Part shown: positions 4,051 to 20,707 of the stretch, one piece after another
Layout of the letters: every line of letters begins with the position of its first letter
Position numbering within the stretch: the first letter of the stretch is position 1
NCBI GenBank assembly: GCA_947475225.1
Contig: CANJMQ010000026.1
Coordinates: 1-49,322 of the forward strand
Direction: 5' to 3'
Length of the DNA: 49,322 nucleotides
From: Bradyrhizobiaceae bacterium
GTDB taxonomy: Bacteria > Pseudomonadota > Alphaproteobacteria > Rhizobiales > Aestuariivirgaceae
Made by a program: the position numbers and the translations under genes
Notes under the pieces: generated by a model
What the model saw: only the letters and a program-made list of their open reading frames with translations
The model's database searches: none
Told to the model about the DNA's origin: nothing

Positions 4051-5088
4051 ATGAAATTCCAGCTCGCCATCAATCTCGAACGCATGGACGACAGTCTCGA
4101 CATGCGCGACGTCGCTCGCCATACGCTCGAGATGGTGCAGATGGCAGAGGATGGCGGTTTCCACATCGTCTGGTCTGCCGAACACCATGCCCTCGAAATG
4201 ACCATCGCGCCGGACCCCTTCCAGATCCTCACATGGTGGGGCGCAAATACTTCGAAGATCCGGTTGGGCACGGCGGTGGCGGTTGCCCCTTACTGGCACC
4301 CCATCAAGCTTGCGGGCGAAGCGGCCTTCACCGATCTCATCACTGGCGGCCGCCTCGAATTCGGAATTGGCTCAGGCGCCTATCAGCGCGAGTTCGACCG
4401 TATGTACCCTGGCCTCAAACAGACGGACGGCTGGAAATACATGCAAGAGATGCTGCCCGCCGTGCTGGCGCTGTGGCAGGGCGATTATAAGCATAAGGGA
4501 GAGTTCTGGCAGTTCCCCACCTCCACCTCCGTACCCAAGCCACTGCAGCAGCCCCATCCCCCCCTCTGGGTGGCCGCGCGCGCACCCATCACATATGATT
4601 TCGCCGTCAAGCACGGGCTCAATATCATGTCGTGGCCGCTGACTCGCCCGATGAGCGAGGCCGAACTCTACAAGTCTCGCCTTGATGAGGCGATGGTCAA
4701 CAACCCCGGCAAGAAACGCCCGATCTTCGCGATGATGCGCCACACGGTCCTCTATGACCGCAAGGAAGACTGGATGGTGCCGGTGCGGGCGGCGCAGCGC
4801 CAGCTTGGCCAGTTCGAGAACCTGTTCAAGAACATGGGCGACGTGAAGAACGGCTTCCCGAAGGGAATTGACCTTCACGACATCGCCAACCGCAGCGAAT
4901 ACGACCCCCAGATGCTATCGACCAACCTGATGTTCGGCACGCCCGACGAGGTGATCGCCAAGCTCAGACCCTATGAGACGCTGGGTGTGGATCAGTTCAC
5001 CTACTACGCCAGCCTCGGCCTTGGCATGAAGGAACAGAAGCGCTCGCTCGAACTGTTCTGCAAGGAAGTCATCCCCGCCTTCAAGTGA
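4051..5088 (+). CDS. LLM-class (luciferase-like) flavin-dependent monooxygenase
   Basis: This 345-aa TIM-barrel protein of the bacterial luciferase-like family resembles alkanal monooxygenase alpha chains. Signature stretches are GFHIVWSAEHHALEMTIAPDP (residues about 32-52), WGANTSKIRLGTAVAVAPYWHPIKLAGEAAFTD, and GGRLEFGIGSGAYQREFDRM. Such enzymes use reduced FMN and O2 supplied by a separate flavin reductase, and no reductase gene is visible in the window. A strong CCAGGAGGGA ribosome site precedes the ATG. The stop overlaps a GTG start of the CaiD-like gene, so it is the first gene of an operon with caiD-like and carnitine dehydrogenase genes. The substrate is unknown; oxidation or C-N cleavage of a quaternary amine or a ring-opening step are possibilities. 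Confidence 0.88.
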   Translation: MKFQLAINLERMDDSLDMRDVARHTLEMVQMAEDGGFHIVWSAEHHALEMTIAPDPFQILTWWGANTSKIRLGTAVAVAPYWHPIKLAGEAAFTDLITGGRLEFGIGSGAYQREFDRMYPGLKQTDGWKYMQEMLPAVLALWQGDYKHKGEFWQFPTSTSVPKPLQQPHPPLWVAARAPITYDFAVKHGLNIMSWPLTRPMSEAELYKSRLDEAMVNNPGKKRPIFAMMRHTVLYDRKEDWMVPVRAAQRQLGQFENLFKNMGDVKNGFPKGIDLHDIANRSEYDPQMLSTNLMFGTPDEVIAKLRPYETLGVDQFTYYASLGLGMKEQKRSLELFCKEVIPAFK

Positions 5089-5903
5089 GTGTGCGCCACA
5101 TGCCACGTTTCATCGAAGTCACCCGCAACGGCCACATCCTCGAGGTCAAGCTCAACAAGCCCAAGGTCAACGCCATCGACCACTTGATGAGCCGCGAGAT
5201 GGGCGAGGCCTTCGCGCTGCTGCGCGATGACCCGGAGCTGCGCGTCGGCATCCTGACCGCCGAGGGCGAGAAGATCTTCTCGGCGGGCTGGGACCTGAAG
5301 GCCCTGAACTCAGGCGACATCAAGCTCGACAACTGGTGGGAAGACGGTGACTACGGTGATGGTGGCTTTGCCGGCCTCACCGAAAACTGGAACCTCAACA
5401 AACCGGTCATTGCCGCGCTCAACGGGCTGGCCATCGGCGGCGGCTTCGAGATTGCACTCTCCTGCGACCTTGTCATTGCGGCCGACCACGTGCAGTTCGC
5501 GCTTCCTGAAATGCCGCTCGGCATCGTGCCAGACGCAGGCGCCCTGCAGCGCCTGCCGCGCCGCATCCCCTATAACATCGCCATGGAAATGCTGCTGCTC
5601 GGTCGCCGCATGGGGGCAGAGGAGGCCGCACGCCATGGCCTCGTCAACAAGGTGGTGCCCTATGCCGAACTGATGACGGTGGCGCGCGAATGGGCAACGC
5701 AACTCGCCAAGTCGGCGCCGCTTGCCATGCAGACGGTGAAGGAAGTGCTGCGCGCCATCGAGTGCAGGCCGATGCGTGAAACCTTCGAAACGATGCGCAA
5801 GGGCGAGCTTCCCATCTACCGCGCCATGCTGAAATCGGAGGATGCGGCTGAGGGCATAAAGGCCTTCGTCGAGAAGCGCGAACCGGTTTTCAAGGGGAAA
5901 TAG
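5085..5903 (+). CDS. Enoyl-CoA hydratase family, carnitinyl-CoA dehydratase (CaiD-like)
   Basis: This 272-aa crotonase-fold protein resembles CaiD closely. Matching blocks are TRNGHILEVKLNKPKVNAID, LRDDPELRVGILTAEGEKIFSAGWDLKAL, GGFAGLTENWNLNKPVIAALNG, and FALPEMPLGIVPDAGALQRLP with the catalytic-region Glu. The C-terminal EKREPVFKGK matches the CaiD ending. CaiD interconverts crotonobetainyl-CoA and L-carnitinyl-CoA, and the adjacent carnitine dehydrogenase supports that here. The GTG start at 5085 overlaps the previous stop; an ATG at 5100 (MPRFIEVTRNG) is an equally plausible start. It is in an operon with its neighbours (2 bases to the next start). Confidence 0.85.
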   Translation: MSVRHMPRFIEVTRNGHILEVKLNKPKVNAIDHLMSREMGEAFALLRDDPELRVGILTAEGEKIFSAGWDLKALNSGDIKLDNWWEDGDYGDGGFAGLTENWNLNKPVIAALNGLAIGGGFEIALSCDLVIAADHVQFALPEMPLGIVPDAGALQRLPRRIPYNIAMEMLLLGRRMGAEEAARHGLVNKVVPYAELMTVAREWATQLAKSAPLAMQTVKEVLRAIECRPMRETFETMRKGELPIYRAMLKSEDAAEGIKAFVEKREPVFKGK

Positions 5904-5905
5904 CG

Positions 5906-6859
5906 ATGACAAGGCCAACCGTAACGGCAGTGAAGAAGGTTGCAAGCATCGGCGGTGGCCCGATCGGTGCTGGTTGGGCGGCGCATTTCCTGGCGCGCGG
6001 CTATGACGTCGCTGGCTATGTCCACTCCATGAGCGAGGAAGCCGCCTATCGCAAGGTGCTCGACACGGCATGGATCAGCCTCACCGCGCTCGGCCTGGCG
6101 CCCGGCGCTTCGCGTGACCGCCTGAGGCTCACCGACAATCTCGAAGCAGCCGTTGCCGATGCGGGCTTCGTGCAGGAAAGTGCGCCCGAGCGGCTGGAAC
6201 TGAAGCAGGCGCTTTATGAGACGCTGGGCCGTATCGTGCCCGCCGACGTGGTCATCGCATCGAGCACGTCGGGCCTGATGATGACAGACATCCAGGTGCT
6301 GTGCCCCACGCCGGAACGCACGGTCATCGGCCATCCCTTCAACCCTCCCTATCTGCTGCCGCTGGTCGAGATCATCGGTGGCAAGAAGACGTCGCCCGAC
6401 GCCGTCGCCTGGGCGCGTGACTTCTATGCGCATGCCGGCAAGGCGCCGCTGGTGATGAAGAAGGAAATCCCCGGCTTCGTCGCCACTCGCCTGCAGGAGG
6501 CGCTGTGGCGCGAGGCGTTGCACATGGTGGCCAACGGCGAAGCGACGCCAGAGGACATCGACATCGCGCTGATGAACGGCCCGGCGCCGCGCCTTGCGAT
6601 CCAGGGCCAGTGCATGGCCTTCCACGTCGCCTGCGGCGAGGGTGGCATGGCCACCAACCTCGATCAGTTCGGTCCGGCACTGAAGCTGCCGTGGACGAGG
6701 CTGGTCGCGCCCGAACTCACCAAGGAACTGCGAGACCGCATGGTGGATGGCTGCAACGAGATCGCCGCGGGCCGCCACTTCGAGGACATGGCAGCTGAGC
6801 GCGACCGCGCCATCGTCGGCGTTCTGAAGGCGGTGCGTGCGGCGCGCGCCGGGTCCTAG
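5906..6859 (+). CDS. lcdH: L-carnitine 3-dehydrogenase (3-hydroxyacyl-CoA dehydrogenase family)
   Basis: This 317-aa protein has an N-terminal Rossmann domain, VASIGGGPIGAGWAAHFLARGYDV (about residues 13-36), followed by VQESAPERLELKQALY, the ASSTSGL serine loop, the catalytic-His block VIGHPFNPPYLLPLVEIIGG, and a C-terminal 3HCDH domain with GFVATRLQEALWREALHMVANGEATPEDID. Spacing and motifs match bacterial carnitine dehydrogenases (LcdH/CdhA), which oxidise L-carnitine to 3-dehydrocarnitine with NAD+. The context agrees: a CaiD-like gene upstream, and a CdhR-type regulator and a BKACE gene adjacent. Its end overlaps the convergent regulator gene by 4 bases. Other short-chain 3-hydroxyacyl or lambda-crystallin-type activities cannot be excluded from sequence alone. 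Confidence 0.8.
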   Translation: MTRPTVTAVKKVASIGGGPIGAGWAAHFLARGYDVAGYVHSMSEEAAYRKVLDTAWISLTALGLAPGASRDRLRLTDNLEAAVADAGFVQESAPERLELKQALYETLGRIVPADVVIASSTSGLMMTDIQVLCPTPERTVIGHPFNPPYLLPLVEIIGGKKTSPDAVAWARDFYAHAGKAPLVMKKEIPGFVATRLQEALWREALHMVANGEATPEDIDIALMNGPAPRLAIQGQCMAFHVACGEGGMATNLDQFGPALKLPWTRLVAPELTKELRDRMVDGCNEIAAGRHFEDMAAERDRAIVGVLKAVRAARAGS

Positions 6860-7920
6860 GCGCGCTTGCGCGGCTTTTTCCGCGCCGTCTGCAAAAAGGC
6901 ATAGACAGTGCCCGGCCATGACGGCGCAGCGTCGGCTTCAGGCCACGCCTGGCGGTATTCGCTGGGCTTCTTGCTGAAGGCCTGAAGGAAACTCTGCGAA
7001 AAATAGGACATGGAGTTGAAACCGCAGGCGGCGGAGACTTCGCGGATCGACATGCGGGTCGAGCTGAGCAGCACGCGCGCATACTGAAGCCTCAGCAACT
7101 TGCTGTACTGCACGATGGTGCAGCCGATGTCGCGCTTGAACAGGCGCTCGAGCTTCCTTTGCGAAACGCCGAGTTCCCGGCAGACGCGCGGCACCGGGGT
7201 CGGGTCCTCGATGCGGCCTTCGAGCAACGTCATTGCGGCGCGCACATCCTGATGCACGTCATCATGCTTGCCGCCTGAGGCGTGGCGCTGCAACGACTCC
7301 GGCAGCCGGCGCGGATGGTGCATCACCTGGTTGGCGATCTCGGCCGCAAGCTGGTCACCATTCTTACGCCCCACAATATGGAGCATCAGGTCGAGCCCGG
7401 CGGTGCCACCCGCACAGGTCATCACGGGCTTGTCGACAGAATAGAGTTGCTCCACCACCTCGAGATCCGGGTAGGCTTCGGCAAGGCCCGCCATCATCGA
7501 CCAGTGGGTCGTCACCTTCTGGTCGGCGACGAGCCCAGCCTTGGCGAAGGCATAGATGCCGAGTTCGACGGCGATCATCTGCACCTGGGCGCGCGCGCTC
7601 TTGCGCAGCCAGCGGAACAGCCGCGGGTCGTTCAGGTGCTCGGCGCCCCAGCTGCCGCACACCGCGATGATGTCCGGTTTCGGAAGCCCCTCCTCGTCGA
7701 CGTTGCGGCAGGCGACGCTAAGCCCGTTACTTCCAGGCACATGGCTCGCCGCCGAGGCCCGGAAGTCCCACTCATAGAGTTTGTGCGGTGCAAGATAATT
7801 GGCGATGCGCATCGGCTCCATGAGCATGGTGAGCGTCATCATGTTGAAGCGCGGGATCAGCACGAAGCTGACGCGGGTCACCTCACCCGTCACCGCACCC
7901 GCTTCAGCCGCTTCCGTCAT
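6856..7920 (-). CDS. GlxA-family AraC-type regulator (CdhR-like)
   Basis: This 354-aa two-domain regulator has a DJ-1/PfpI-like sensor (about residues 15-190) in which the usual nucleophilic Cys elbow is replaced (IAVELGIYAFAKAGL), so it is a ligand-binding rather than enzymatic domain. An AraC/XylS DNA-binding domain follows (about 220-325), with two helix-turn-helix units around VPRVCRELGVSQRKLERLFKRDIG and SIREVSAACGFNSMSYFSQSF. In Pseudomonas the family members CdhR and GbdR activate carnitine and glycine-betaine catabolism. This gene lies between the carnitine dehydrogenase and the divergent BKACE/ABC operon, as expected for the local activator. The inducer is inferred to be carnitine or a derivative. 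Confidence 0.86.
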   Translation of the reverse strand: MTEAAEAGAVTGEVTRVSFVLIPRFNMMTLTMLMEPMRIANYLAPHKLYEWDFRASAASHVPGSNGLSVACRNVDEEGLPKPDIIAVCGSWGAEHLNDPRLFRWLRKSARAQVQMIAVELGIYAFAKAGLVADQKVTTHWSMMAGLAEAYPDLEVVEQLYSVDKPVMTCAGGTAGLDLMLHIVGRKNGDQLAAEIANQVMHHPRRLPESLQRHASGGKHDDVHQDVRAAMTLLEGRIEDPTPVPRVCRELGVSQRKLERLFKRDIGCTIVQYSKLLRLQYARVLLSSTRMSIREVSAACGFNSMSYFSQSFLQAFSKKPSEYRQAWPEADAAPSWPGTVYAFLQTARKKPRKRA

Positions 7921-8030: not shown

Positions 8031-8918
8031 GTGAACTTCGAAGTCATCGTGACATGTGCCGTCACCGGGGCTGGTGACACGGTGGGCAAGCACCCCGGCG
8101 TTCCCGTGACCCCGGAGCAGATCGCGCAGGCCGCTATTGATGCCGCCAAGGCCGGCGCCACAGCCGCCCACCTGCACGTCCGCGACCCGGCCACAGGCAA
8201 GGGTTCACGTGATCCGGAACTGTTCAAGCGCGCCGTGGACATTGTTCGCTCCAGCGGCACAGACGTCGTGATCAACCTCACCGCCGGCATGGGCGGCGAC
8301 TGGATGATCAGCGAGTCTGACCCATGCAAGCCGGGACCCGGCACCGACATGATCGGCCCTGAGGAGCGGCTGCGCCATGTCGAGATGCTGCGCCCGGAAA
8401 TCTGCAGCCTCGACTGCGGTTCGATGAATTTCGGCGACGGCAACTACGTCTACATGTCCACCCCGCCCTATCTCCGCCGCATGGCGGCGCTGGTGAAGGA
8501 ATGGGGGGTGAAGCCTGAGCTCGAGGTCTTCGACCTCGGCCACATCCGACTGGCGAAGCAGCTGATCGCCGAAGGGCTGATCGAGGATCCGCCGATGTTC
8601 CAGATCTGCCTGGGCATTCCGTGGGGGGCCGACCAGTCGGTCGACAACATGAAGGCGATGAAGGACCAGCTGCCCGCCAATGCGAGCTGGGCCAGCTTCG
8701 GCATCTCGCGCATGCAGATGCCCATGGCCGCCGCTGCGGTGGCCATGGGCGGCAATGTGCGCGTCGGCCTCGAGGACAATCTCTATCTCGACCGCGGCGT
8801 GCTGGCGAGCAACGCCCAGCTCGTCGAGCGCGTCGTTGGCATCGTCGAGCGCATGGGCGCCAGGGTTCTGACCCCGGCCGAGGCGCGCAAGAAGCTCGGG
8901 CTCAAGAAGCAGGCATGA
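8031..8918 (+). CDS. BKACE (DUF849) beta-keto acid cleavage enzyme, probable 3-dehydrocarnitine:acetyl-CoA enzyme
   Basis: This 295-aa TIM-barrel protein of the 3-keto-5-aminohexanoate cleavage family (Kce/BKACE) has the Zn-binding pair H47-x-H49 in [14 protein letters not shown]. The family blocks [37 protein letters not shown] and LGIPWGADQ also follow. BKACE enzymes cleave a beta-keto acid using acetyl-CoA to give acetoacetate and a new CoA ester; members beside carnitine dehydrogenase (Pseudomonas CdhC) turn 3-dehydrocarnitine into betainyl-CoA. The GTG start follows GGGGAG. The stop overlaps the next ATG (ATGA). Substrate specificity is inferred from context. Confidence 0.85.
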
Positions 8919-9949
8919 CAGCAGGTCCCTCCGGCATCGGTGTCGTCTTCCAGAACGTCACCAAGCAGTATGGAAAGATGACCGCCGTCGACGGCGTGTC
9001 ACTCGATATCCGCGCCGGTGAGTTCCTGACGCTGCTGGGGCCATCAGGCTCCGGCAAGACAACGCTGCTCATGATGCTGGCGGGCTTTCAGGACATCACG
9101 GCGGGTGACATCCTGGTCGGCGGCAGTTCGATTGCCTCCACGCCGCCCGAGAAGCGCAACTTCGGCATGGTGTTCCAGGGCTATGCCTTGTTTCCGCACA
9201 TGACGGTGCGCAAGAACATATCCTATCCGCTGGAAATCCGCCGCAAGCCGCAGGCCGAGATCGAGGCCCGCGTCAACGAGATGCTGGATCTCGTGCAGCT
9301 CAACGGCTTCGCAGACCGCTATCCGCATCAACTCTCGGGCGGTCAGCAGCAGCGCGTGGCACTGGCCCGCGCGCTCAGCTTCTCGCCGCGCGTGCTGCTC
9401 CTCGACGAACCGCTGGGCGCGCTCGACCGCAAGCTCCGCGCCGATGTGCAGGAGCAGCTGAAGGAGGTTCACAACCGGGTCGGCACCACCTTCATCTATG
9501 TGACGCACGATCAGGAAGAAGCCCTCACCATGTCCGATCGGATCGTGATCATGGACCACGGCAAGGTGGTGCAGGTCGGCAATCCGGTCGAACTCTACGA
9601 GAAGCCGCGCACCGCCTTTGCGGCCAGCTTCCTCGGCAAGAGCAACTTCATCCATCGCGACGGCCGCACCTTTGCGCTGCGGCCTGAAAAGATCGATCTC
9701 TTCCCGGCAGGCACCGGCCATGGCCAGAACAGGCTCACTGGCACAGTTCGCGGCATCACCTACATGGGTGCTACCCTCAAGCTGCTGGTCGAGGTTCCGG
9801 GCCACCCGATGATCGAGGTTCACGTCCCCGCGTGGCGCAACACGGGGCAGTTTTCCGACTCACAAGCCGTCGATCTCTGCTGGAGCGATGACGCTCAGGT
9901 CGAGGTCGAGGGCGGTGACGGCGAAGAAGCGGGCACAAGATCCGCATGA
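8915..9949 (+). CDS. ABC transporter ATP-binding protein (PotA type)
   Basis: This 344-aa ATPase has Walker [10 protein letters not shown], a Q-loop near [16 protein letters not shown], the signature [15 protein letters not shown], Walker [13 protein letters not shown] and the H-loop [14 protein letters not shown]-terminal TOBE-like extension (after about residue 240) contains [10 protein letters not shown]. This is the PotA/FbpC class that drives importers of polyamine-type and other small cationic or acidic solutes. The ATG overlaps the BKACE stop (ATGA). It is followed by the binding protein and two permeases, making a complete importer. Import of carnitine, butyrobetaine or a related quaternary amine is inferred from the surrounding catabolic genes. 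Confidence 0.93.
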
Positions 9950-10013: not shown

Positions 10014-11123
10014 ATGAAAGACAAAGCTTTCCTGAATGACCTCGCACGCGAGGGTGCGATTGCCTTCAAGTCGGGCCGCCTCGACCGCCGCAGCTTCCTG
10101 ATGCTGTGCGGCTTGGCCGGTGTCGCAACGCTCGCCGTCAAGGCGAACGATGCGGAGGCCGCCGCCAACGAGATCGTCATGTGGAACTGGGGCGGCGAGT
10201 CCGAGAAGTGCCATGGCGACGCCATTGGCAAGCCCTTCACGGCCAAGACAGGCCTGCCGTTGAAGTTCGACACCTCTGGCCCGCTGCAGGGCAAGATCAA
10301 GGAAATGGTCGACTCCGGCAAAGTGACGGCCGACGTCTGCGACGCCGATGGCTTCGACGCCATCGCACTTGGCAAGTCCGGCCACCTCGAGGCCATCGAC
10401 TACAACATCGTCGACAAGAAGCAGATCAAGGAGGGCGTTGCCTGGGAATATGGCGTGGGCGTCATCTTCTACGGCTACGCCTTCATGTATGATACCAAGG
10501 CCTTCGGCGACAATCCGCCCAAGGGCTGGGCCGATTTCTACGATACCGCCAAGTTCCCCGGCAAGCGTTCGCTCTACAAGTGGGCCAACGGCTCGATCGA
10601 GAGCGCGCTGGTTGCCGACGGCGTCGCGAAGGACAAGGTCTATCCTTGCGACGTGCCGCGCGCCATCGCCAAAATCAAGACCATCAAGGCCGACAGCCTC
10701 TACTGGGGCTCCGGCTCCGAGGCTCACGACATGATCGTCAATGGTGAAGTGGCGATGGGCATGATCTGGCAGAACCGCGGCAAGACCATCGAGGAGCGCA
10801 CCAATGGGCGCTACAAGATGGTCATGAACGAAGCGATCGCCATGCCGGGCGCCTACATCGTGCCGCGGGGCAACCCGGCGGGCCGGGACAACGTGATGAA
10901 GTTCATCGAGCAGGCGCTGCAGGTAGACTCGCAGCTCATGATCCTCGACTGCCTTGGCATGACGCCATCCAATCCGGAGGCCTTCGCCAAGATCCCCGAA
11001 GCGATGCAGCCTTACGCCATCAACTCGGCGCAGAACATCGACAAGGTGATCTTCAACGATCCGGTCTGGTGGGCCGACAACGGCGGTGACGCCGTGAACG
11101 CCTTCCTCGAAGCCATCGGCTGA
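10014..11123 (+). CDS. Periplasmic solute-binding protein (PotD-like), Tat-exported
   Basis: This 369-aa extracellular solute-binding protein carries an N-terminal twin-arginine signal, LDRRSFLMLCGLAGVATLAV (about residues 24-43), followed by an Ala-rich cleavage region (DAEAAA). The mature protein shows the PotD/family 1 pattern, with IVMWNWGGESEKCHG at its start, LQGKIKEMVDSGKVTADVCDADGFDA, and VGVIFYGYAFMYDTKAFG. GGAGGAA lies just before the ATG at 10014. Tat export suggests folding in the cytoplasm. The ligand is not readable from the sequence; a quaternary ammonium compound is inferred from context. Confidence 0.9.
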   Translation: MKDKAFLNDLAREGAIAFKSGRLDRRSFLMLCGLAGVATLAVKANDAEAAANEIVMWNWGGESEKCHGDAIGKPFTAKTGLPLKFDTSGPLQGKIKEMVDSGKVTADVCDADGFDAIALGKSGHLEAIDYNIVDKKQIKEGVAWEYGVGVIFYGYAFMYDTKAFGDNPPKGWADFYDTAKFPGKRSLYKWANGSIESALVADGVAKDKVYPCDVPRAIAKIKTIKADSLYWGSGSEAHDMIVNGEVAMGMIWQNRGKTIEERTNGRYKMVMNEAIAMPGAYIVPRGNPAGRDNVMKFIEQALQVDSQLMILDCLGMTPSNPEAFAKIPEAMQPYAINSAQNIDKVIFNDPVWWADNGGDAVNAFLEAIG

Positions 11124-11137
11124 CCAACGAAAGTGTG

Positions 11138-11166
11138 GCACGCGCCCCTTACAAGGGGGCGCGTGC
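11138..11166 (+). promoter_or_regulatory. Intercistronic hairpin after the binding-protein gene
   Basis: A 13-bp stem with one G-T pair (GCACGCGCCCCTT at 11138-11150 with AGGGGGCGCGTGC at 11154-11166) encloses an ACA loop. It begins 14 bases after the binding-protein stop and has no following T-tract. Such hairpins between a binding-protein gene and its permease genes usually protect the upstream mRNA or cause partial attenuation. Its position also argues that the permease starts at 11177 rather than at the in-frame GTG at 11135. Confidence 0.7.
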
Positions 11167-11176
11167 GCTCAACGTC

Positions 11177-12834: not shown

Positions 12835-13995
12835 TTGAGCCTCGTCAGTTCCCACGAAAACCGCCTGCTGCTGGAAACCGTGCAGGCCTTCATGAAGGCC
12901 GAGCTTCACCCACATGAGGACCTCGTCGACAAGCTGGGCGAGGTTCCGCTCGACCTTGGCCGGCAGATCGAGAAGCGCGCCCACGAGGCGGGCCTCTATG
13001 CCGCGAACCTGCCGGAGGAGGTAGGGGGCGGGGGCTTGAGCCTCGAGGCCAAGACCATCATGGAGCGTGAGTTCGGCAAGACCAGTCATGCGCTGCACAG
13101 CTGGGTGGCGCGCCCAACCGAACTGCTGCTGGCCTGCGAGGGCGAGCAGCGCGATCACTACCTCTATCCTTGTGTCAAGGGTGAGAAGCGCGAACTCTTT
13201 GCGCTCACCGAGCCTGAAGCAGGCTCCGACGTGATGGGCATGAAGTCCAACGCGCGACGTGACGGAGACGACTGGATCCTCAACGGCTCGAAACACTTCA
13301 TTTCCGGTCCCGTGCTGCCAGATTTCGCCATAGTCTTCGCGGCAACCGGCCTGGACGAGAGCCCGCGCGGGTCGCGAAAGCGCGTAACCTCTTTCCTCGT
13401 CGACACCGGAACGCCGGGCTTCGACGTGCGCGACGGCACGCATTGCGTCAGCTATCGCGGCTACAAGACCTTCCAGCTCAGCTTCGACAATGTGCGCCTC
13501 AACAAGCGCCAGATCCTCGGCGAGGAGGGCCGCGGGCTTGAACTTGCAGGCCAGTGGCTCACCTATGGTCGCATCTTCGTCGGCGCCTCGTGCTGCGGCA
13601 AGGCGGAGCGGCTCATGGGTCTTGCTGCCGAGTGGGCGGCAAGCCGCAAGCAGTTCGGCCAGGCCATCGGCAAGTTCCAGGGCACCGGCTTCAAGCTGGC
13701 TGACATGGCAACCGAACTGCGCGCCGCCGATCTCCTCGTGGAGGATGCCATCCGCCGCGCCAATGAGGGCACCCTCACTGACGCCGACATCTCGATGGTC
13801 AAGCTCTACTGCTCCGAAATGGTGAACCGCGTAGCCGACAACACGGTGCAGATCTATGGCGGCATGGGCCTCATGGAGGAGCTTCCTGTCCAGCGCCTGT
13901 GGCGTGATGCGCGCCTCGAGCGCATCTGGGACGGAACATCCGAGATCCAGCGCCACATCATCTCGCGCGCCATCCTGCGGCCGCTCGGCGCATGA
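12835..13995 (+). CDS. Acyl-CoA dehydrogenase family, candidate gamma-butyrobetainyl-CoA dehydrogenase
   Basis: This 386-aa FAD-dependent dehydrogenase has the N-terminal helical domain, ALTEPEAGSDVMGMKSNARR (FAD/substrate contact) and a C-terminal helical domain with AASRKQFGQAIGKFQGTGFKLADM. The active-site segment reads ERIWDGTSEIQRHII, with Asp366 where many family members have the catalytic Glu (YEGT). No alternative Glu at the isovaleryl-CoA-dehydrogenase position is obvious. The start is TTG. In this cluster the fitting reaction is gamma-butyrobetainyl-CoA to crotonobetainyl-CoA, the step before CaiD. The stop overlaps the next ATG. Electron transfer presumably goes through ETF encoded elsewhere. 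Confidence 0.83.
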   Translation: MSLVSSHENRLLLETVQAFMKAELHPHEDLVDKLGEVPLDLGRQIEKRAHEAGLYAANLPEEVGGGGLSLEAKTIMEREFGKTSHALHSWVARPTELLLACEGEQRDHYLYPCVKGEKRELFALTEPEAGSDVMGMKSNARRDGDDWILNGSKHFISGPVLPDFAIVFAATGLDESPRGSRKRVTSFLVDTGTPGFDVRDGTHCVSYRGYKTFQLSFDNVRLNKRQILGEEGRGLELAGQWLTYGRIFVGASCCGKAERLMGLAAEWAASRKQFGQAIGKFQGTGFKLADMATELRAADLLVEDAIRRANEGTLTDADISMVKLYCSEMVNRVADNTVQIYGGMGLMEELPVQRLWRDARLERIWDGTSEIQRHIISRAILRPLGA

Positions 13996-16079
13996 CCCCG
14001 AAGCGCCGCGCCAATCTCGAGCGGCTGCTGAAGCCCCGCCACGTCGCGGTGATCGGCGGGCGCGACACGGAAACCGTCGCCGCCGAATGCAAGCGCATCG
14101 GGTTTTCCGGCCCATTCTGGCCGGTGAACCCGAAGCGCAGCCACATCGGCGGCCACCCCTGCTTCGCATCGATCGACGCACTGCCGGAAGCACCCGACGC
14201 GGTGTTCCTCGCCGTTCCCAAGGACGCCGCCATCGAGGCGCTGCAAAAACTTAGCGCCATGGGGGCGGGCGGCGTCGTCTGCTATACGGCAGGCTTCGGC
14301 GAGACCGGTTCCGAAGGTGCGGAGGCCGAAGCGCGCCTCGTTGCCGCGGCGGGCGATCTCGCACTCGTCGGCCCCAATTGCTACGGCGTCATCAACTACG
14401 TGGACAGGGTGGCTCTATGGCCCTTCACGCATGGCGGCTCTTGCCCGGGATATGGCGCGGCCATCATCACGCAGAGCGGCATGCTGTCCTCCGACTTCAC
14501 CATGAGCCAGCGCGGCGCGCCCTTCGCCTTCATGGTCTCGGCCGGGAACCAGACGCTGCTCAGGCTCGAGGATTTCGTCGATGCTCTGGCTGAAAGGCCG
14601 GAGGTGCGCGCCCTCGGCCTGCACATCGAGGGGCTGAAGGATGTTCAGGCCTTCGAGCGCGCCGCACTCAAGGCGCTGTCATTCGGCAAGCCCATCGTGG
14701 CGCTGAAGACCGGCACGTCGCGGCTGGGTTCCAGCCTGACGGTGAGCCACACGGGTTCGCTCTCCGGCACCGAGGAGCTTTATGATGCGTTGTTCGAGCG
14801 GCTGGGCATTATCCGCGTGAGCAGCCCCGCGCAGTTGCTCGAAACCACCAAGTTCCTCTGCGTGGCGGACGTGCCAAGGGGTCGCCGCCTTGCCGGTCTC
14901 ACCTGCTCAGGCGGCGGCGCCACAATGCTGGCGGATTATGCCGAGCGGCTCGGCCTCACCTTCACGCCGCCCGATGCCGCGACGGCGGCCAGCCTGCGCA
15001 CCCTTCTGCCGCAGACAGCCACTGTCTCCAACCCGCTCGACTACACCACCCCCATCTGGGGCATTCCTGAGAAGACACGCCCGGTCTTCGACACGCTGTT
15101 CGCGCAAGGCCATGATGCGGCGGTGATCGTGCAGGACTATCCCGCCCCCGGCCTCGACGAGAGCAAGCCCTGGTACCGCAACGACACGCTCTCCTTCATC
15201 GCCGCCGCGAAGGCGCAGGGGCTTCCCGCCGCGGTATGCAGCACGATCCCCGAGAATCTCGATGCGGAAACCCGCAACTTCCTGGTTGCCGAGGGTGTTG
15301 CCCCCATGCAGGGCATCGAGGAGTGCATGGCGGCCATCGCCGCTGCCGCCTGGCATGGAGAACGCCGCGCCGAGATCGCTACAGGCAACCGGCAGCCGCT
15401 TGTGAAGCCGCTGCCCGATGGCAGCCCGCACCTTCTTGACGAGGCCGCCGCAAAGAAGCTGCTCGCTGCGAGGAGCATCGCCGTGCCGCGCAGCCGCATC
15501 TGTAGCGGAGCCGATGCGCCGTCCCTCGCCGATGCGCTGGGCTTTCCGGTCGCCCTGAAAATGGTCAGTGCCCGGCTTCCACACAAGACCGAGGCTGGCG
15601 CCGTTCGCCTTGGGCTCTCATCGAAGGAAGCAATCGCCGAAGCCGTCCAGCGCATGAAGGCCGATGTCACAGCCTTCAACGCCGACGCCCTCACCGACGT
15701 TTTCCTCGTCGAGGCCATGGTTGCGGCTCCCGTGGTGGAATTGATGGTCAGCATCCGGCGCGATCCGCAGTTTGGGTTGGCGATGACGCTGGCGGCCGGC
15801 GGCGTCCTTGTCGAACTGCTGGAGGATGCAACCACGATCCTGCTGCCTGCCACGCGCCCTGATCTCGCCCGCGCGCTCTCCCGGCTGAAGATCAACCGGC
15901 TGCTTGATGGCTATCGCGGCAAGCCCGCCGCAAGCCGCGAGGCACTTCTCGATACGCTCGAGAGGCTCGCTGCCTTCGCAACACATGAGACCAACCAGGT
16001 GGCCGAGATCGAGATCAACCCGCTTTTCGTGGGCGTGACGGAGAGCTGTGCCGTCGACGTCCTGATGCAAGTCCGCTAG
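13992..16079 (+). CDS. NDP-forming acyl-CoA synthetase (acetate-CoA ligase family)
   Basis: This 695-aa fused protein has a CoA-binding Rossmann domain (about 12-135; VAVIGGRDTETVAAE), a succinyl-CoA-ligase-like domain with the phospho-His motif VSHTGSLSG (about residue 250), and a C-terminal ATP-grasp domain (about 475-690; VALKMVSARLPHKTEAGAVRLGL, AAPVVELMVSIRRDPQFG). It is the single-chain ADP-forming ligase architecture, distinct from AMP-forming CaiC. In context it would activate gamma-butyrobetaine, crotonobetaine or carnitine to its CoA ester. It overlaps the upstream gene (ATGA) and ends in a 4-base overlap with the convergent aldehyde dehydrogenase gene. Substrate is inferred; some related proteins are regulatory or act on other acids. 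Confidence 0.87.
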   Translation: MTPKRRANLERLLKPRHVAVIGGRDTETVAAECKRIGFSGPFWPVNPKRSHIGGHPCFASIDALPEAPDAVFLAVPKDAAIEALQKLSAMGAGGVVCYTAGFGETGSEGAEAEARLVAAAGDLALVGPNCYGVINYVDRVALWPFTHGGSCPGYGAAIITQSGMLSSDFTMSQRGAPFAFMVSAGNQTLLRLEDFVDALAERPEVRALGLHIEGLKDVQAFERAALKALSFGKPIVALKTGTSRLGSSLTVSHTGSLSGTEELYDALFERLGIIRVSSPAQLLETTKFLCVADVPRGRRLAGLTCSGGGATMLADYAERLGLTFTPPDAATAASLRTLLPQTATVSNPLDYTTPIWGIPEKTRPVFDTLFAQGHDAAVIVQDYPAPGLDESKPWYRNDTLSFIAAAKAQGLPAAVCSTIPENLDAETRNFLVAEGVAPMQGIEECMAAIAAAAWHGERRAEIATGNRQPLVKPLPDGSPHLLDEAAAKKLLAARSIAVPRSRICSGADAPSLADALGFPVALKMVSARLPHKTEAGAVRLGLSSKEAIAEAVQRMKADVTAFNADALTDVFLVEAMVAAPVVELMVSIRRDPQFGLAMTLAAGGVLVELLEDATTILLPATRPDLARALSRLKINRLLDGYRGKPAASREALLDTLERLAAFATHETNQVAEIEINPLFVGVTESCAVDVLMQVR

Positions 16080-17560
16080 CGCATCACGAAGGGGTTGGCG
16101 AGCGGCTGGTCGGAGGTGTTGATCCACACTGTCTTGGGCCGGGTATAGTCATAGATCGCCTGGAAGCCGCTCTCGCGGCCATAGCCCGACTCCTTGAAGC
16201 CACCGAATTCGGCGATGGGCGAGACGACGCGATAGGTGTTCACCCACACGATGCCGGCACGCAGTTGCTTTGTAACGCGCAGCGCCCGTGCGCCATTGCG
16301 CGTGAACACACCCGCTGCCAGCCCGTGCTTTGTGTCATTGGCTAGCCGCACCACCTCTTCCTCGTCCTTGAAGCGCAGCACGCTCAGCACCGGCCCAAAC
16401 ATCTCGGTGTCGACAATACGGTCCTGCTGGCTGCGGCATTCGATGATGGTGGGTTCGTAGAACAGGCCGCGGTTCTGCGCGGGCGGGCGCTGTCCACCAG
16501 TCAGCAATTTACCACCTTGCTCCTGCGCGAAGGCCACTTCCTTCTCGATGCGGGCCATCTGGCCGTGGGTTGCGAGCGGCCCCATCTGGGTCTCTTCCAG
16601 CAACGGGTCGCCGATGCGGATCTGCCGGGCGCGCGCTACCATGGTATCGAGGAACTGGTCAGCCACCTTGTCCTGCAGGTAGAGCCGCGAGCCCGCCACG
16701 CAGGACTGGCCCGTCGCCCCGAAGATGCCAGAAATCGAACCATTGACAGCGCTTTCGAGATCGGCGTCGTCAAACACCAGGAACGGCGACTTGCCGCCGA
16801 GCTCAAGCGACACCTGCGCAAAGTTCTCCGCCGAATTGCGAATGATCTGGCGCGCCGATTCCGGCCCCCCGGTAAAGCTGATGCGCTGCACGAGGGGGTG
16901 CGACGTCAGCACCCGCCCACATGGGTCGCCATGGCCCGTCACCACGTTGAACACGCCGGGCGGAAAGCCCGCCTCCTCCATGAGCTTCGCGAATTCCAGC
17001 ATGGGCGCCGAGGCATGTTCGGAAGCCTTCAGCACCACCGTGTTGCCCGCTGCCAGTGCCGGCCCGATCTTCACCGCGACGAGGAAGAGCTGCGAATTCC
17101 ACGGCACCACGGCCGCAACGACGCCCAGCGGCTCGCGCAGCGTCATCGCCACCATGTCCGGCTTGTCGATGGGCAGCGTGTTACCCATCACCTTGTCGGC
17201 CGCACCGGCATAGAAATGGAAGAACTCGGCGATGTATTTCGCCTGCCAGCGCGTCTCCTTCAGCATCTTGCCGGTATCGATCGTCTCGGTGCGGCCCAGT
17301 TCCTCGGACTTCTGGGCAAGAAGTTCGGCGAGGCGGCGAAGATACTTGCCGCGCGCGGTCGGAAGTGCCGTCGCCCACTCTCCTTGCGTGAAGGCCCGGT
17401 GCGCGGCCTCCACCGCCCGGTTCACGTCGGCGGCGGTGGCTTCCGGAATTTCCGACCAGTCGTCGCCGGTCGAAGGGTTCATCGAGGTGAAAGTCCGGCC
17501 GTCCGCGGCATCGACCCATTTTCCATCGATGAACATCTGGTAGCGCTGCAGCGTAGTCAT
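16076..17560 (-). CDS. NAD(P)-dependent aldehyde dehydrogenase
   Basis: This 494-aa ALDH superfamily member contains VVPWNSQLFLVAVKIGPALAAGNTVVLKASE (cofactor site), FTGGPESARQI, catalytic Glu in SLELGGKSP and nucleophilic Cys in GQSCVAGSRLYLQ. Family length is typical. Candidate roles are 4-trimethylaminobutyraldehyde to gamma-butyrobetaine, feeding the neighbouring pathway, or oxidation of a semialdehyde formed by ring opening, as TgnC does in trigonelline breakdown. Relatives of this subtype are sometimes labelled carnitine dehydratase in databases, which is misleading. It is transcribed opposite to the ligase gene and is divergent from the RidA gene, so it is regulated separately. Confidence 0.9.
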   Translation of the reverse strand: MTTLQRYQMFIDGKWVDAADGRTFTSMNPSTGDDWSEIPEATAADVNRAVEAAHRAFTQGEWATALPTARGKYLRRLAELLAQKSEELGRTETIDTGKMLKETRWQAKYIAEFFHFYAGAADKVMGNTLPIDKPDMVAMTLREPLGVVAAVVPWNSQLFLVAVKIGPALAAGNTVVLKASEHASAPMLEFAKLMEEAGFPPGVFNVVTGHGDPCGRVLTSHPLVQRISFTGGPESARQIIRNSAENFAQVSLELGGKSPFLVFDDADLESAVNGSISGIFGATGQSCVAGSRLYLQDKVADQFLDTMVARARQIRIGDPLLEETQMGPLATHGQMARIEKEVAFAQEQGGKLLTGGQRPPAQNRGLFYEPTIIECRSQQDRIVDTEMFGPVLSVLRFKDEEEVVRLANDTKHGLAAGVFTRNGARALRVTKQLRAGIVWVNTYRVVSPIAEFGGFKESGYGRESGFQAIYDYTRPKTVWINTSDQPLANPFVMR

Positions 17561-17702
17561 GGGTAGGCCTCCTTCGACGTCATCCGAGAGTGACGGTCCG
17601 CCCGGGGACGTGATGCAAGATTTTCGCCGGGCTCTGTCGGAAATCTATTACAATGCGCCGAACAGCCACGCATAGACTTTTCAACAGGTTGGGAGAGTGG
17701 GA

Positions 17703-18098
17703 TTGGCAAGGACCAAGCAGGTGATTGGTGGACCACTGGTGATCGGCGGCCGTACGCTCTCGCTTTCACGCGCCATCCGCGCGGGTGACTTCGTGTTCCT
17801 CACCGGTCAGGTCCCCTTCAGGGATGGGCAGGTGATGACCACCGGTTCGATCGAGGAACAGACCCGCGCCGTCCTGGACGACATCAAGACAACCCTGGGC
17901 GAGGGCGGCTGCGCCCTGTCCGACGTCGTCAAGGCCATGGTCTGGCTGCGCGACCGTGCCGATTTCCCCGGCTTCAATGCCGTCTATGGCGAGTACTTCC
18001 CGGAGGAACCTCCCACCCGCTCCGCCGTGGTGAGCGATCTGCTCGTCGACGTCCGGGTTGAGGTGGAGGTCATTGCCTACAAGCCGGTGGCGGGCTGA
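17703..18098 (+). CDS. RidA family (YjgF/YER057c/UK114) protein
   Basis: This small trimer-forming protein of about 131 aa has the family pattern RAIRAGDFVFLTGQVPF, IEEQTRAVLDDIKTTLGEGGCALSDVVKAMVWLRD, and the ending PTRSAVVSDLLVDVRVEVEVIAY, with the Arg and Glu that mark imine-deaminase-competent RidA proteins. Such proteins hydrolyse reactive enamines or imines; the RutC subtype assists aminoacrylate handling in pyrimidine breakdown. The TTG start at 17703 is spaced correctly behind GGGAGAG (17691-17697); an in-frame GTG at 17697 would overlap that site. It starts a four-gene unit with a hydrolase, a CoA transferase and DUF1185. Confidence 0.85.
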   Translation: MARTKQVIGGPLVIGGRTLSLSRAIRAGDFVFLTGQVPFRDGQVMTTGSIEEQTRAVLDDIKTTLGEGGCALSDVVKAMVWLRDRADFPGFNAVYGEYFPEEPPTRSAVVSDLLVDVRVEVEVIAYKPVAG

Positions 18099-18099: not shown

Positions 18100-18897
18100 A
18101 TGGCCTCGTTCACGCCGCGCGGCACCGCCTACGAAAGCTTCGGTAACGGACCAAGGGTCATCGCACTGGTCCATGGCCTGGGTCTCAACCGCCATTCATG
18201 GCAATGGCAGGTTCCAGCGCTGGCAAGGGACTTCCGCGTCATCACCTTCGACCTGCACGGCCACGGCGACAGCAGCGTTCCGCCACAGACGCCATCGCTC
18301 ACCCTGTTCTCCGAGCAACTCAATGAGTTGCTTGATCACCTCGACGTCACCAAGTCGTCCGTCTTCGGCTTTTCGCTCGGCGGCATGATTGCCCGACGCT
18401 TCGCCATGGACCATGCGGCAAGGCTGGACAAGCTTGGCGTCCTCCACTCCGCCCATGCGCGGGACAAGGCGGCACATGACGCGATCCAGGCTCGCGTCGT
18501 GCAGGCCGCCAAGGATGGTCCCGCCGCCACGGTCGAGGCCGCCCTGTCACGCTGGTTCACCGACGGATTCCGCATGAGCCACCCGGAGATGATGGACAAG
18601 GTGCGGCGCTGGATCCTCGCCAACCGCAAGGACGTCTATGCGCCGATCTACCAGGTGCTGGTTGATGGCGTGACGGAACTGGTGGCGCCCAGCCCGCCCA
18701 TCGCCGCGCCTACCCTCGTCATGACCGGCGAGGAAGATTACGGCAATTCCCCCGCCATGAGCCGCGCCATTGCGGCAGAAATCCCGGGCTCCGAACTCGT
18801 CATCCTTCCGGGTCTCCGCCACATGGCGCTGGCCGAGGCGCCGGAGCTGTTCAACGCGAAGCTGCTCGCCTTCCTGTTGCGGGCACAAGATGTCTGA
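18100..18897 (+). CDS. Alpha/beta-fold hydrolase
   Basis: This 265-aa hydrolase has the oxyanion block LVHGLGLNRHSWQWQ, the nucleophile elbow G-F-S-L-G in SVFGFSLGGMIARRFAMDH, an acid in MTGEEDYGNSP and the catalytic His in LPGLRHMALAEAPELF. It resembles 3-oxoadipate enol-lactonase, BioH-type and RutD-type enzymes. It begins one base after the RidA stop, and its end overlaps the CoA-transferase start by 8 bases. Possible tasks are hydrolysing betainyl-CoA (no hotdog thioesterase like CdhB is present) or an enol-lactone/amide from an oxygenase step. The substrate is not determinable from sequence. Confidence 0.88.
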   Translation: MASFTPRGTAYESFGNGPRVIALVHGLGLNRHSWQWQVPALARDFRVITFDLHGHGDSSVPPQTPSLTLFSEQLNELLDHLDVTKSSVFGFSLGGMIARRFAMDHAARLDKLGVLHSAHARDKAAHDAIQARVVQAAKDGPAATVEAALSRWFTDGFRMSHPEMMDKVRRWILANRKDVYAPIYQVLVDGVTELVAPSPPIAAPTLVMTGEEDYGNSPAMSRAIAAEIPGSELVILPGLRHMALAEAPELFNAKLLAFLLRAQDV

Positions 18898-20083
18898 GGC
18901 GCCGCGCGGCATCCTCTCCGGCATCCGCGTGCTGGACTTCAGCCGCATGCTGTCTGGCCCCTACTGCACCATGATGCTCGCCGACCACGGCGCCGAGGTT
19001 ATCAAGATCGAGAGCCCCGAAGGCGACACGAGCCGCAGCAATGGTCCGTGGCGCGCCGATGACGAGGCACATGAATGGGCGGGCTACTTCGTGAGCCTGA
19101 ACCGCAACAAGAAAAGCATCGTTCTCGACCTCAAGACTGAAGCGGCAAAGAGCACGATCCGCGACCTCGTCCGCTCTTCCGATGTGCTGGTCGAGAACTT
19201 CCGGCCGGGCGTCATGGAGCGGCTTGGCCTTGGCTACGAGGAACTGGCTAAGCTGAACCCGGCCCTCGTCTATGCCACGATCCGCGGTTTCGGTGACCCG
19301 CGCAGCGGCGAGAGCCCCTATGTCAACTGGCCGTCCTATGACGTCGTCGCTCAGGCCATGGGCGGGCTGATGAGCATGACCGGGACCGACCGAGACCATC
19401 CTATGAAGTCCGGCCCCGGCATCGGCGACGTCTTCGCCGGCATGATGCTCGCCTTCGCCATCGTCTCCGCCGTGCGCCATGCCGAAAGGACCGGCCACGG
19501 CCAGTTCGTTGACATCGCCATGTATGACGCCATGCTCAGTCTCTGCGAGCGTCTCGTCTATCTCTACGACATGGAAGGCAAGGTGGCGGAGCCCGCCGGC
19601 AATGGCCATCCGCTGCTTGCCCCCTTCGGATTGTTTCCGGCGTCTGATGGCTGGGTGTCGATCGGTGTCGTCGACGATGCCTTCTGGCGCGAACTCACGC
19701 GCATCATGGAGCGCGCAGATCTTCTGGCCGACCAGAGGCTCGCCACCAAAGCCGGCCGCCGCGTCCACGCGCAGGAGGTCAACGACGCCGTCGGCGCCTG
19801 GACACGCCAGCGCAGCAAGGTGGAGCTCGGCGCGCTGCTCGGCGGCAAGTTGCCCTTCGGCCCGGTGAACGATGCGCGCGACATCTTCAATGATCCGCAT
19901 GTGGCGGTACGCGGCATGATCGCCGAGGTGGCGCATGCCGAGGCGGACAAGAAGGGCTGGCGGATTGCCGCCAATCCGATCCGTTTCGGCGCAACGCCGG
20001 CGCCTGCTCCCTTCACCCCGCCACGACTCGGCGAGCACAACCACCTGCTCGCCATGCTCGCGCGCGCCAAACCCGCAACCTGA
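18890..20083 (+). CDS. CaiB/BaiF type III CoA transferase
   Basis: This 397-aa family III CoA transferase has the N-terminal VLDFSRMLSGPYCTMMLADHGAEVIKIESPEGD, then RNKKSIVLDLKTEAAK, VENFRPGVMERLGLGYEEL, and GPGIGDVFAGMMLA containing the Asp expected to form the aspartyl-CoA anhydride. CaiB moves CoA between gamma-butyrobetainyl-, crotonobetainyl- and carnitinyl-CoA, and its presence here fits that chemistry, possibly using betainyl-CoA as donor. The start at 18890 (MSEAPRGILSG) overlaps the hydrolase end; a longer upstream frame is not family-like. Formyl-CoA-transferase-type or other substrates remain possible. Confidence 0.88.
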   Translation: MSEAPRGILSGIRVLDFSRMLSGPYCTMMLADHGAEVIKIESPEGDTSRSNGPWRADDEAHEWAGYFVSLNRNKKSIVLDLKTEAAKSTIRDLVRSSDVLVENFRPGVMERLGLGYEELAKLNPALVYATIRGFGDPRSGESPYVNWPSYDVVAQAMGGLMSMTGTDRDHPMKSGPGIGDVFAGMMLAFAIVSAVRHAERTGHGQFVDIAMYDAMLSLCERLVYLYDMEGKVAEPAGNGHPLLAPFGLFPASDGWVSIGVVDDAFWRELTRIMERADLLADQRLATKAGRRVHAQEVNDAVGAWTRQRSKVELGALLGGKLPFGPVNDARDIFNDPHVAVRGMIAEVAHAEADKKGWRIAANPIRFGATPAPAPFTPPRLGEHNHLLAMLARAKPAT

Positions 20084-20098
20084 ACGCCAGAGGCTCCC

Positions 20099-20707
20099 AT
20101 GGAACTGAAGATCAGAAAGCTCGTCAACTTCGAGGAAGAGATCCATCTCGAGGGTGAGCGCGCCGCAACCCCGCCGCTGCGCATGCTGGGCGTGGCCGCG
20201 GTCGTCAGGAACCCCTGGGCGGGGCGCGGCTATGTCGCGGATCTGAAGCCCGAGATCCGTGCCTTCGCACCGATCCTCGGCAAACTGCTTACCGAGCGCA
20301 TCGTGGCCATGGCGGGCGGGACGGACAAGATCGAAGCCTATGGCAAGGCGGCGATGGCCGGGCTCGACTGCGAGCAGGAGCACGCCTCCGCCCTCATCCA
20401 CACGCTGCACTATGGTAATTTCTATCGCGAGGCACTGGGCGCCAAGACCTATCTCGGCTTCACCAACACGCGCGGGCCCGCCAATACGCAGATCCAGATC
20501 CCGCTGATGGACAAGCACGACACCGGGCGGCGCTCGCATTACCTGACCGTCCAGTTCTCGATCGCCGATGCGCCGGCCGACGATGAACTGATCGCCGCCT
20601 TCGGTGGCGCCACTGGCGGCCGCCCGCACCACCGCATCGGCGATCGCTACCAGGACCTCGCCGACATCGGCGCCGACGTCAACGATCCGGCACGGCTGGG
20701 ACGCTAA
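20099..20707 (+). CDS. DUF1185 (amino acid synthesis, PF06684) family protein
   Basis: This 202-aa protein resembles the AA_synth/DUF1185 family, whose biochemical role is not established despite its name. Visible features are VNFEEEIHLEGERAATPPLRMLGVAAVVRNPWAGRGYVADL near the N-terminus, GLDCEQEHASALIHTLHYGNFYREALGAKTYLGFTNTRGP in the middle and a C-terminal GGRPHHRIGDRYQDL. No signal peptide or membrane segment is present. It is the last gene of the RidA/hydrolase/CoA-transferase unit, 15 bases after the CoA transferase. The co-location suggests a metabolic role with the cluster's substrate; I do not assign one. Confidence 0.8.
   Translation: MELKIRKLVNFEEEIHLEGERAATPPLRMLGVAAVVRNPWAGRGYVADLKPEIRAFAPILGKLLTERIVAMAGGTDKIEAYGKAAMAGLDCEQEHASALIHTLHYGNFYREALGAKTYLGFTNTRGPANTQIQIPLMDKHDTGRRSHYLTVQFSIADAPADDELIAAFGGATGGRPHHRIGDRYQDLADIGADVNDPARLGR

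Follow-up and report, generated by a model that had tools for sequence, protein, structure and literature searches.

The described systems closest to the locus studied here are pathways for ring betaines and for carnitine. In Acinetobacter baylyi, a trigonelline (Tgn) pathway was reportedly worked out by Perchat in 2018, with TgnA as a reductase, TgnB as an LLM flavin monooxygenase, TgnC as an aldehyde dehydrogenase (ALDH), TgnD as a hydrolase, and the further proteins TgnE and TgnF. The Rut pyrimidine pathway uses members of the LLM, RidA, alpha/beta hydrolase and flavin reductase families. For carnitine, Pseudomonas aeruginosa has the operon caiX-cdhCAB-hocS (PMC5806209), and a genomic island of SAR11 holds gamma-butyrobetaine dioxygenases (BBOX), carnitine dehydrogenase (CDH) and BKACE (PMC12421898). 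A fatty-acid-like route from gamma-butyrobetaine (GBB) to L-carnitine, followed by carnitine dehydrogenase, is an old concept, from work on strain HK4 and its dehydrogenase mutant HK13 (PMC2131755). We analyzed a 49,322-nucleotide stretch of DNA (the window) from a Bradyrhizobiaceae bacterium (contig CANJMQ010000026.1 of assembly GCA_947475225.1) that contains an island of genes resembling both kinds of system. We found that the island joins what we read as a Tgn-like oxygenase module (module A) to a carnitine-type module (module B), and that the two recur together in other bacteria. Our preferred reading, held tentatively and at slightly less than even confidence, is that they form one pathway for a cationic carnitine-like acid, and that the substrate is probably not L-carnitine or GBB.

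All genes were confirmed by open reading frame and Pfam searches, and start codons were checked. An earlier note on this DNA had proposed a GBB/carnitine catabolic island, and every gene family that it named has strong Pfam support at its place; the listed genes do lie together (Table 1). It was also right that CoA-ester beta-oxidation genes are joined here to a CdhA/CdhC-type dehydrogenase (LcdH) and BKACE, and that an importer and a GbdR/CdhR-like regulator accompany them.

A survey of gene neighborhoods bore out the association: nearly the whole set recurs on two plasmids and in many LLM loci. The only plasmid records with LcdH at 60-80% identity were from Parasedimentitalea marina and Aminobacter sp. 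SR38, members of two bacterial orders. Both carry a near-identical set in one block: LLM, RidA, alpha/beta hydrolase, DUF1185, ALDH, enoyl-CoA hydratase (ECH), LcdH, regulator, BKACE, importer, acyl-CoA dehydrogenase (ACAD) and ligase. We also scanned named genomes for LLM, taking the best 80 of 354 relatives, which are 74-97% identical to the window LLM. Loci were counted by tblastn with flanks of at most 10 kb, on many short contigs, and the counts depend on the identity thresholds chosen. At least two of ECH, LcdH, BKACE, ACAD and ligase (module B) were present in 42 of the 80 loci, and at least two of ALDH, RidA, alpha/beta hydrolase, DUF1185 and flavin reductase (module A) in 44. That is, 26 loci had both modules, 18 had module A only, 16 had module B only and 20 had neither; in some of the loci with module B only, the flank stops short of the position that module A has in the window. 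A solute-binding protein (SBP) of the Pot type was found in 21 of the 80, exclusively with module B. The CoA-transferase accompanied module B in 14 loci and was found in one locus without it, and the GlxA/AraC regulator also adjoins LLM in 12 of the 38 loci without module B. Of the island, Aestuariivirga litoralis showed just LLM and module B.

Recurrence on two plasmids and in 42 of the 80 loci indicates that the gene set is not due to chance, and it rules out that LLM, RidA, the hydrolase and DUF1185 are random neighbors. Module A, alone or joined to a carnitine-type module, is widespread in many marine and soil bacteria. A version of the cluster of the SUP05/Acidiferrobacteraceae type, with an LcdH of another lineage, is present in L100, L105, L111, L113, L114, L120, L123 and L124; some loci of this type also hold MmgE/PrpD, a second ECH and an FAD oxidoreductase.

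Some loci tie the modules together physically. In locus L007, CoA-transferase and flavin reductase are one fused protein, and in L008 a flavin reductase occupies the place of the CoA-transferase. Fourteen of 16 clustered CoA-transferase homologues are 692-712 aa long, the size of the fusion. In L008 the cluster is followed by an acetoacetate-CoA ligase gene, which fits with a release of acetoacetate by BKACE.

We found that module B of the window type occurs in genomes with LLM. For class-genome counts, a window-type LcdH was defined by at least 60% identity and LLM by at least 55%. Among 385 class genomes, window-type LcdH was present in 7 and LLM in 14, and all 7 carry both (Fisher p 1.5e-11, a value that ignores kinship, four of the seven being in one family). 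In two genomes (G079 and G034) the genes are on different contigs. In a second sample, from another family (61 genomes), all 4 genomes with window-type LcdH had LLM, out of 14 with LLM in total. When the samples were pooled (one genome is shared), 10 of 10 genomes with window-type LcdH held LLM. Thus, window-type module B was not seen without module A, and module A can stand alone. A tree of LLM was built without the duplicates and without loci 133-144; in it, genes that have a linked module B interleave with genes that do not (10 changes).

The earlier note had left LLM, RidA, the alpha/beta hydrolase and the DUF1185 protein as members without a step, and had made ALDH a trimethylaminobutyraldehyde dehydrogenase. 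The four instead form a module of their own. We read them, with ALDH, as a Tgn-like oxygenase module, predicted to open a ring, because they match Tgn-like gene sets; RidA joins them in LLM loci. ALDH is better assigned to this module, and its former assignment is probably wrong, because it stays with LLM in loci that have no carnitine-type genes. Tgn-like sets of flavin reductase, ALDH, LLM, alpha/beta hydrolase, a carboxymuconolactone decarboxylase family protein (CMD) and DUF1185 are present on pAt of A. fabrum C58 and in Azospirillum, Thalassospira and Mesorhizobium. Importers for betaine (ProXWV) or amino acids lie near them, the Azospirillum set adjoins nicotinate-type genes, and the DUF1185 gene is divergent in the Thalassospira and Mesorhizobium sets. 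All six genes have counterparts in or near the window module, at 36-51% identity (flavin reductase compared via L007 and L008). Compared singly with these sets, LLM and the DUF1185 protein are each 48-51% identical, ALDH 44-58% and the alpha/beta hydrolase 36-37%. CMD is 75-87% identical in L007 and six close loci, 50-53% identical in six loci of the SUP05 type and 42-47% in the Tgn-like sets. RidA is not part of the Tgn-like operons; RidA genes lie within ~10 kb in three of the four sets, and identity is 65-81% in LLM loci that carry RidA. TgnF of the trigonelline cluster is homologous to HcdD, a DUF1185-type protein, according to one paper (PMC7913881).

No flavin reductase of module A was found within the window. 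The best match in the window genome is on another contig (G000:C22:21094-22002; L153) and is 43% identical to the module A reductase of L008. The genome thus has the LLM, flavin reductase, ALDH, alpha/beta hydrolase and DUF1185 protein of a Tgn-like module, with the likely reductase unlinked. This match lies inside a 463-aa frame with an unassigned N-terminal part, and its neighbors look, by eye, like an oligopeptide-type ABC system. The genome also has two tandem DUF1185 genes (G000:C55:1292-2418; L136), 35-38% identical to the window copy.

We compared BKACE of the window (344.9 bits with PF05853, cut-off 24.8) to its relatives. Every one of the 38 LLM-linked rows (31 window-type and 7 SUP05-type) has Arg at residue 173, where the carnitine-type rows have Trp without exception (18 of 18, and 21 of 21 in a wider set). 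At residue 169 the same 38 rows have Leu, and 15 of the 18 carnitine-type rows have Thr. The carnitine-type rows came from a hand list of 23 loci, 18 of which yielded BKACE; the 36 window-type rows of the wider comparison include the window a second time, as L002. If our preferred reading holds, residue 173 may serve as a one-residue marker that separates the two kinds. In distant BKACE structures, position 173 is Leu, His, Tyr or Asp (alignments read by eye), as expected of a specificity position. In a model of the protein (mean pLDDT 83.6), strand 161-166 contains residue 165, and one turn separates residues 169 and 173 at the start of the next helix (169-180). The helix start after a strand is the side on which TIM barrels bind substrate. 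E165 aligns with the conserved position of E143 of Kce (alignment read by eye).

The change from Trp to Arg (W173R) apparently arose twice, both times beside LLM, with moderate support, because removing columns 169 and 173 does not bring the two BKACE lineages together. In a tree of 48 rows (15 named near-identical loci and rows below 50% identity were left out), the SUP05-type proteins group with that of the thioesterase-linked L023 (98/95), apart from the window type. A single clade was rejected (approximately unbiased (AU) test, p 0.035, post hoc, same columns removed). LcdH gave a similar picture: the LLM-linked proteins are two separate lineages on the same LLM type (one clade rejected, AU p 0.006, post hoc). 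The window LcdH (317 aa, unfused) is in a separate clade of the LcdH tree. The first LcdH tree was thinned from 81 to 63 rows, and the LcdH AU test left out 25 named loci, including the long branches L003, L135 and L043 and the short loci L016-L021.

We propose the following pathway. The importer of module B would take up a cationic C4-type acid resembling GBB, and the ligase or the CoA-transferase would activate it to a CoA ester. ACAD would dehydrogenate the ester and the CaiD-like hydratase would hydrate it, giving the CoA ester of a 3-hydroxy acid. The CoA-transferase could then pass the CoA to incoming substrate and free the 3-hydroxy acid, which LcdH would oxidize to a 3-keto acid. BKACE, with acetyl-CoA, would split this into acetoacetate and an acyl-CoA two carbons shorter. 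Module A, which also holds DUF1185 and sometimes CMD, would act in the manner of the Tgn pathway: LLM and flavin reductase would carry out an FMNH2-dependent oxidative opening next to the cationic nitrogen, after which ALDH would oxidize the aldehyde, the alpha/beta hydrolase would cleave an amide and RidA would hydrolyze an imine. The reactions are inferred from protein families, and their order and the substrate are likewise inferred. We prefer an order in which module B shortens the chain and module A opens the remaining nitrogen ring; this order would explain the absence of module B without module A. In the alternative, module A acts first and module B degrades the opened acid. The genomes searched for LcdH belong to 24 of the 38 LLM loci that have at most one module B gene, and to 4 loci with module B. 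Of the 24 genomes without linked module B, 3 had window-type LcdH elsewhere, 18 had only distant LcdH-like genes and 3 had none at E 1e-50; in LLM genomes the distant genes are often in a frame of ~500 aa. These data speak mildly for the reverse order, since 18 of the 21 genomes with module A and no window-type LcdH hold other LcdH-like genes.

Evidence for our preferred reading comes from conservation of the block on plasmids and in many genomes and MAGs, the likeness of module A to Tgn-like gene sets, co-occurrence, the fusion of CoA-transferase and flavin reductase, two LcdH lineages joined to one LLM type, W173R in both BKACE lineages, the lack of a CdhB-like match in LLM-linked loci and a second carnitine-like cluster in the genome. 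Several observations weigh against it or against a substrate other than carnitine. Twenty of the 80 LLM loci, 7 of them at least 18 kb long, had neither module at the thresholds used. The TGAGDT motif of the window BKACE is common to most carnitine-type BKACEs; a quaternary-amine substrate is therefore still allowed, and a positive charge near the site is likely kept. Five of the other 135 pairs of BKACE clades also share one such change, though a milder one, so the W173R convergence is suggestive and not proof. The columns shared by the LcdH lineages were no more than in control pairs, and we rejected LcdH residues 238/292/301 as proof of convergence because control pairs share equally many. 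That residues 169 and 173 line the pocket is an assumption from the topology of the model. We know of no natural substrate that requires both modules.

The best surviving alternative is that the island is what the earlier note took it for, a GBB/carnitine island. GBB would be converted via GBB-CoA, crotonobetainyl-CoA and carnitinyl-CoA to carnitine, and then via dehydrocarnitine and betainyl-CoA to glycine betaine; LLM, RidA, alpha/beta hydrolase and DUF1185 would be accessory, acting for example on a by-product or an acyl ester. We consider this unlikely, though well worth weighing. Every enzyme of the route is present, the regulator is GbdR-like, and among NCBIfam models CaiD scores highest for ECH and L-carnitine dehydrogenase for LcdH. 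In addition, BKACE is 64% identical, with TGAGDT in common, to that of the carnitine operon in L011 (SBP, BKACE, L-carnitine dehydrogenase and thioesterase). However, the scores fall short. LcdH scored 328 of 414 bits with the L-carnitine dehydrogenase model (NF005471) and 262 of 592 with a second carnitine model, passing neither; LcdH of L143 passed both (602 of 592) and that of L011 passed the first (615 of 414). ECH scored 324.6 bits with the CaiD model NF002936 (cut-off 500). ACAD is not clearly CaiA: it reached 160 of 540 bits for CaiA and 243 for its best model, acryloyl-CoA reductase, all below cut-off. That is, the window proteins do not reach the CaiB, CaiA and CaiD equivalogs of the Cai CoA-ester route. 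For the transferase, "CaiB-type" holds at the level of the superfamily only (CaiB model 140 of 413 bits); its best NCBIfam model is succinyl-CoA:mesaconate CoA-transferase (417 of 700). The regulator scored 221 of 480 bits with the GbdR model, and PotA was just above a general polyamine-ATPase subfamily model (357.9 of 355.6).

Three further results bear on carnitine as the substrate. First, BKACE has Arg in place of Trp173. The earlier note held that residues aligning with non-carnitine subfamilies would refute its reading, and positions 169 and 173 do differ from the carnitine-type relatives, with TGAGDT shared with most. Second, a CdhB-like thioesterase gave no match in LLM-linked loci, also at a laxer E 1e-5, in a search that misses some fused forms. 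Matches of the CdhB type were in 14 locus rows, corresponding to 11 distinct places, none LLM-linked. To be set against this, L143 should have a fused domain that the search did not report, and three LLM genomes (L041, L193 and L194) hold an LcdH locus with a thioesterase elsewhere. Third, window-type LcdH was not seen without LLM in the genomes sampled; of the 84 class genomes that have an LcdH-like gene of some kind, by contrast, 72 lack an LLM of at least 55% identity.

A carnitine island in the window would also likely be redundant. The same genome has a second LcdH/BKACE cluster on contig C31 (G000:C31:33780-35637; L135), with ECH, ligase, ACAD and an extra SDR, and its BKACE has Trp173 (row L003). 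Possibly this is the real GBB/carnitine cluster; the SDR is reminiscent of D-carnitine dehydrogenase. In contrast, its LcdH is below cut-off too (351 of 414 bits), which leaves its standing as a true carnitine cluster unproven and counts against our argument. The draft genome (4.1 Mb) has six BKACE matches. The carnitine reading stands as to reaction types, and its substrate is doubtful in view of the missed models, W173R, the lack of a thioesterase match and the second cluster.

A less probable alternative is that the island combines two pathways that work independently and share a regulator. Module A would degrade a ring betaine like trigonelline or homarine and module B would degrade GBB/carnitine, and their genes would lie side by side because the same plant or algal food supplies both compounds. 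Module A without module B in 18 of the 80 loci fits this notion, as does the absence of window-type LcdH from the five Tabrizicola genomes among those searched. Among LLM genomes without window-type LcdH, 5 of 7 have some LcdH-like gene, compared to 72 of 371 others (Fisher 0.005). Trigonelline, stachydrine and carnitine genes are reportedly linked on pSym (Goldmann, in 1991). Further versions of module A are on S. meliloti pSymA and on Leisingera and Arthrobacter plasmids, and the LLM operon of pSymA includes an importer of the Pot type (PotA 56% identical over 238 residues) and a second ALDH-like stretch. In the pSymA operon of S. meliloti AK57 (L182:6611-8048), the DUF1185 and hydrolase matches are in separate pieces, and both genes may be broken. 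Independent pathways do not readily account for window-type module B not being seen without module A (10 of 10 genomes and 2 of 2 plasmids), for the fusion of CoA-transferase and flavin reductase, or for the same residue change in two BKACE lineages.

A Rut-type pyrimidine pathway was rejected (RutC 58 of 169 bits and RutD 80 of 239, both below cut-off). On chemical grounds homarine might be an attractive substrate for module A, with RidA acting on a 2-imino acid, and we list it among the rejected readings. One paper considers it unlikely that TgnA/TgnB would work on homarine (PMC8269262).

Within our preferred reading of one pathway in two modules, we doubtfully offer a more specific version. 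The substrate of this undescribed pathway could be a GBB isostere in the form of a cationic acid with a nitrogen ring, such as a pyridinium with a three- or four-carbon acid chain. The chain would be shortened with release of acetoacetate, the ring betaine would be handed to the TgnAB-like oxygenase, and W173R would mark the switch from a trimethylammonium substrate. If so, the presence of the pathway in SAR116, SUP05-type bacteria, Rhodobacterales and soil bacteria would imply an abundant, unrecognized betaine. If the broader preferred reading holds, the gene set annotated as "carnitine degradation" in many marine bacteria would act on something else, carnitine turnover would be overcalled, and a sink of another dissolved organic nitrogen compound would have been missed. 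RidA and DUF1185 would gain a defined pathway. A search for the substrate would be feasible with cultured Parasedimentitalea marina, Aminobacter sp. SR38 and Hwanghaeella grinnelliae. Our literature search, of open-licence papers only, found no paper joining these gene names.

Table 1. Genes of the island, with positions in the window.
Feature	Position	Strand	Model
CMD family protein, probable member	2382..2837	+	PF02627
Serine hydrolase (beta-lactamase family), possible esterase, probable member	2818..3939	+	PF00144
LLM flavin monooxygenase, module A oxygenase	4051..5088	+	PF00296
CaiD-like ECH, module B	5100..5903	+	PF00378; NF002936
LcdH/CdhA-like 3-hydroxy-acid dehydrogenase, module B, own clade	5906..6859	+	NF005471
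GlxA/AraC-type regulator, GbdR/CdhR-like	6856..7920	-	PF12833 + PF01965
BKACE (CdhC-like), L169 and R173 replacing T and W	8031..8918	+	PF05853
PotA-type ABC ATPase	8942..9949	+	PF00005
PotD-type SBP	10014..11123	+	PF13416
PotB-type permease	11135..12025	+	PF00528
PotC-type permease	12022..12816	+	PF00528
ACAD, module B	12835..13995	+	PF00441
NDP-forming acyl-CoA ligase, module B	13992..16079	+	PF13549, PF13607, PF13380
ALDH, reassigned to module A, TgnC-like place	16076..17560	-	PF00171
RidA imine/enamine hydrolase family, module A	17697..18098	+	PF01042
Alpha/beta hydrolase, module A, TgnD-like place	18100..18897	+	PF00561
Class III CoA-transferase; relatives have flavin reductase fusion	18890..20083	+	PF02515
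DUF1185/AA_synth protein, TgnF-like place	20099..20707	+	PF06684

CMD and the serine hydrolase, outside the span given in the earlier note, are probably members because both recur beside LLM; homologues of the serine hydrolase were in 9 loci, every one holding LLM (L007, L045-L049, L072, L093 and L125). An upstream FGase gene (668-1552; N-formylglutamate amidohydrolase-type) was rejected as a member, as it had no match within the flanks of the 80 LLM loci. No Pfam hit was found for the shadow frames at 12652-14190 (-) and 18851-20866 (-). Farther away, a 1121-codon open frame (43359-46724, -) is antisense to a 1662-aa open reading frame (42051-47039, +).

Compared with known systems, the island resembles several and matches none entirely. 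The L143 and L144 clusters of BKACE, LcdH, ACAD, ligase and ECH have the same five enzyme families as the window, 40-58% identical (53-54% for ACAD in L135, L143 and L144), but their LcdH frames are ~500 aa, no LLM was called and their BKACEs have W173 (rows L029 and L030). The Rut pathway has the same families as module A, but the window proteins miss the RutC and RutD cut-offs. As far as the available descriptions go, caiX-cdhCAB-hocS and the window both have a dehydrogenase, BKACE and a divergent AraC-type regulator (judged by gene description); no CdhB-like gene was seen in the window, which adds a ligase, ACAD, a hydratase and the LLM module. Likewise, the SAR11 island shares carnitine dehydrogenase, BKACE, an importer and ALDH with the window, and differs in having BBOX and in that no LLM is listed in the part of the description available. 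The window-type LLM is only 40% identical to that of S. meliloti pSymA. With the Tgn pathway of A. baylyi, module A has in common the families of LLM, flavin reductase, ALDH, alpha/beta hydrolase and a DUF1185 homologue (TgnF); to these the window adds RidA and the carnitine-type module.

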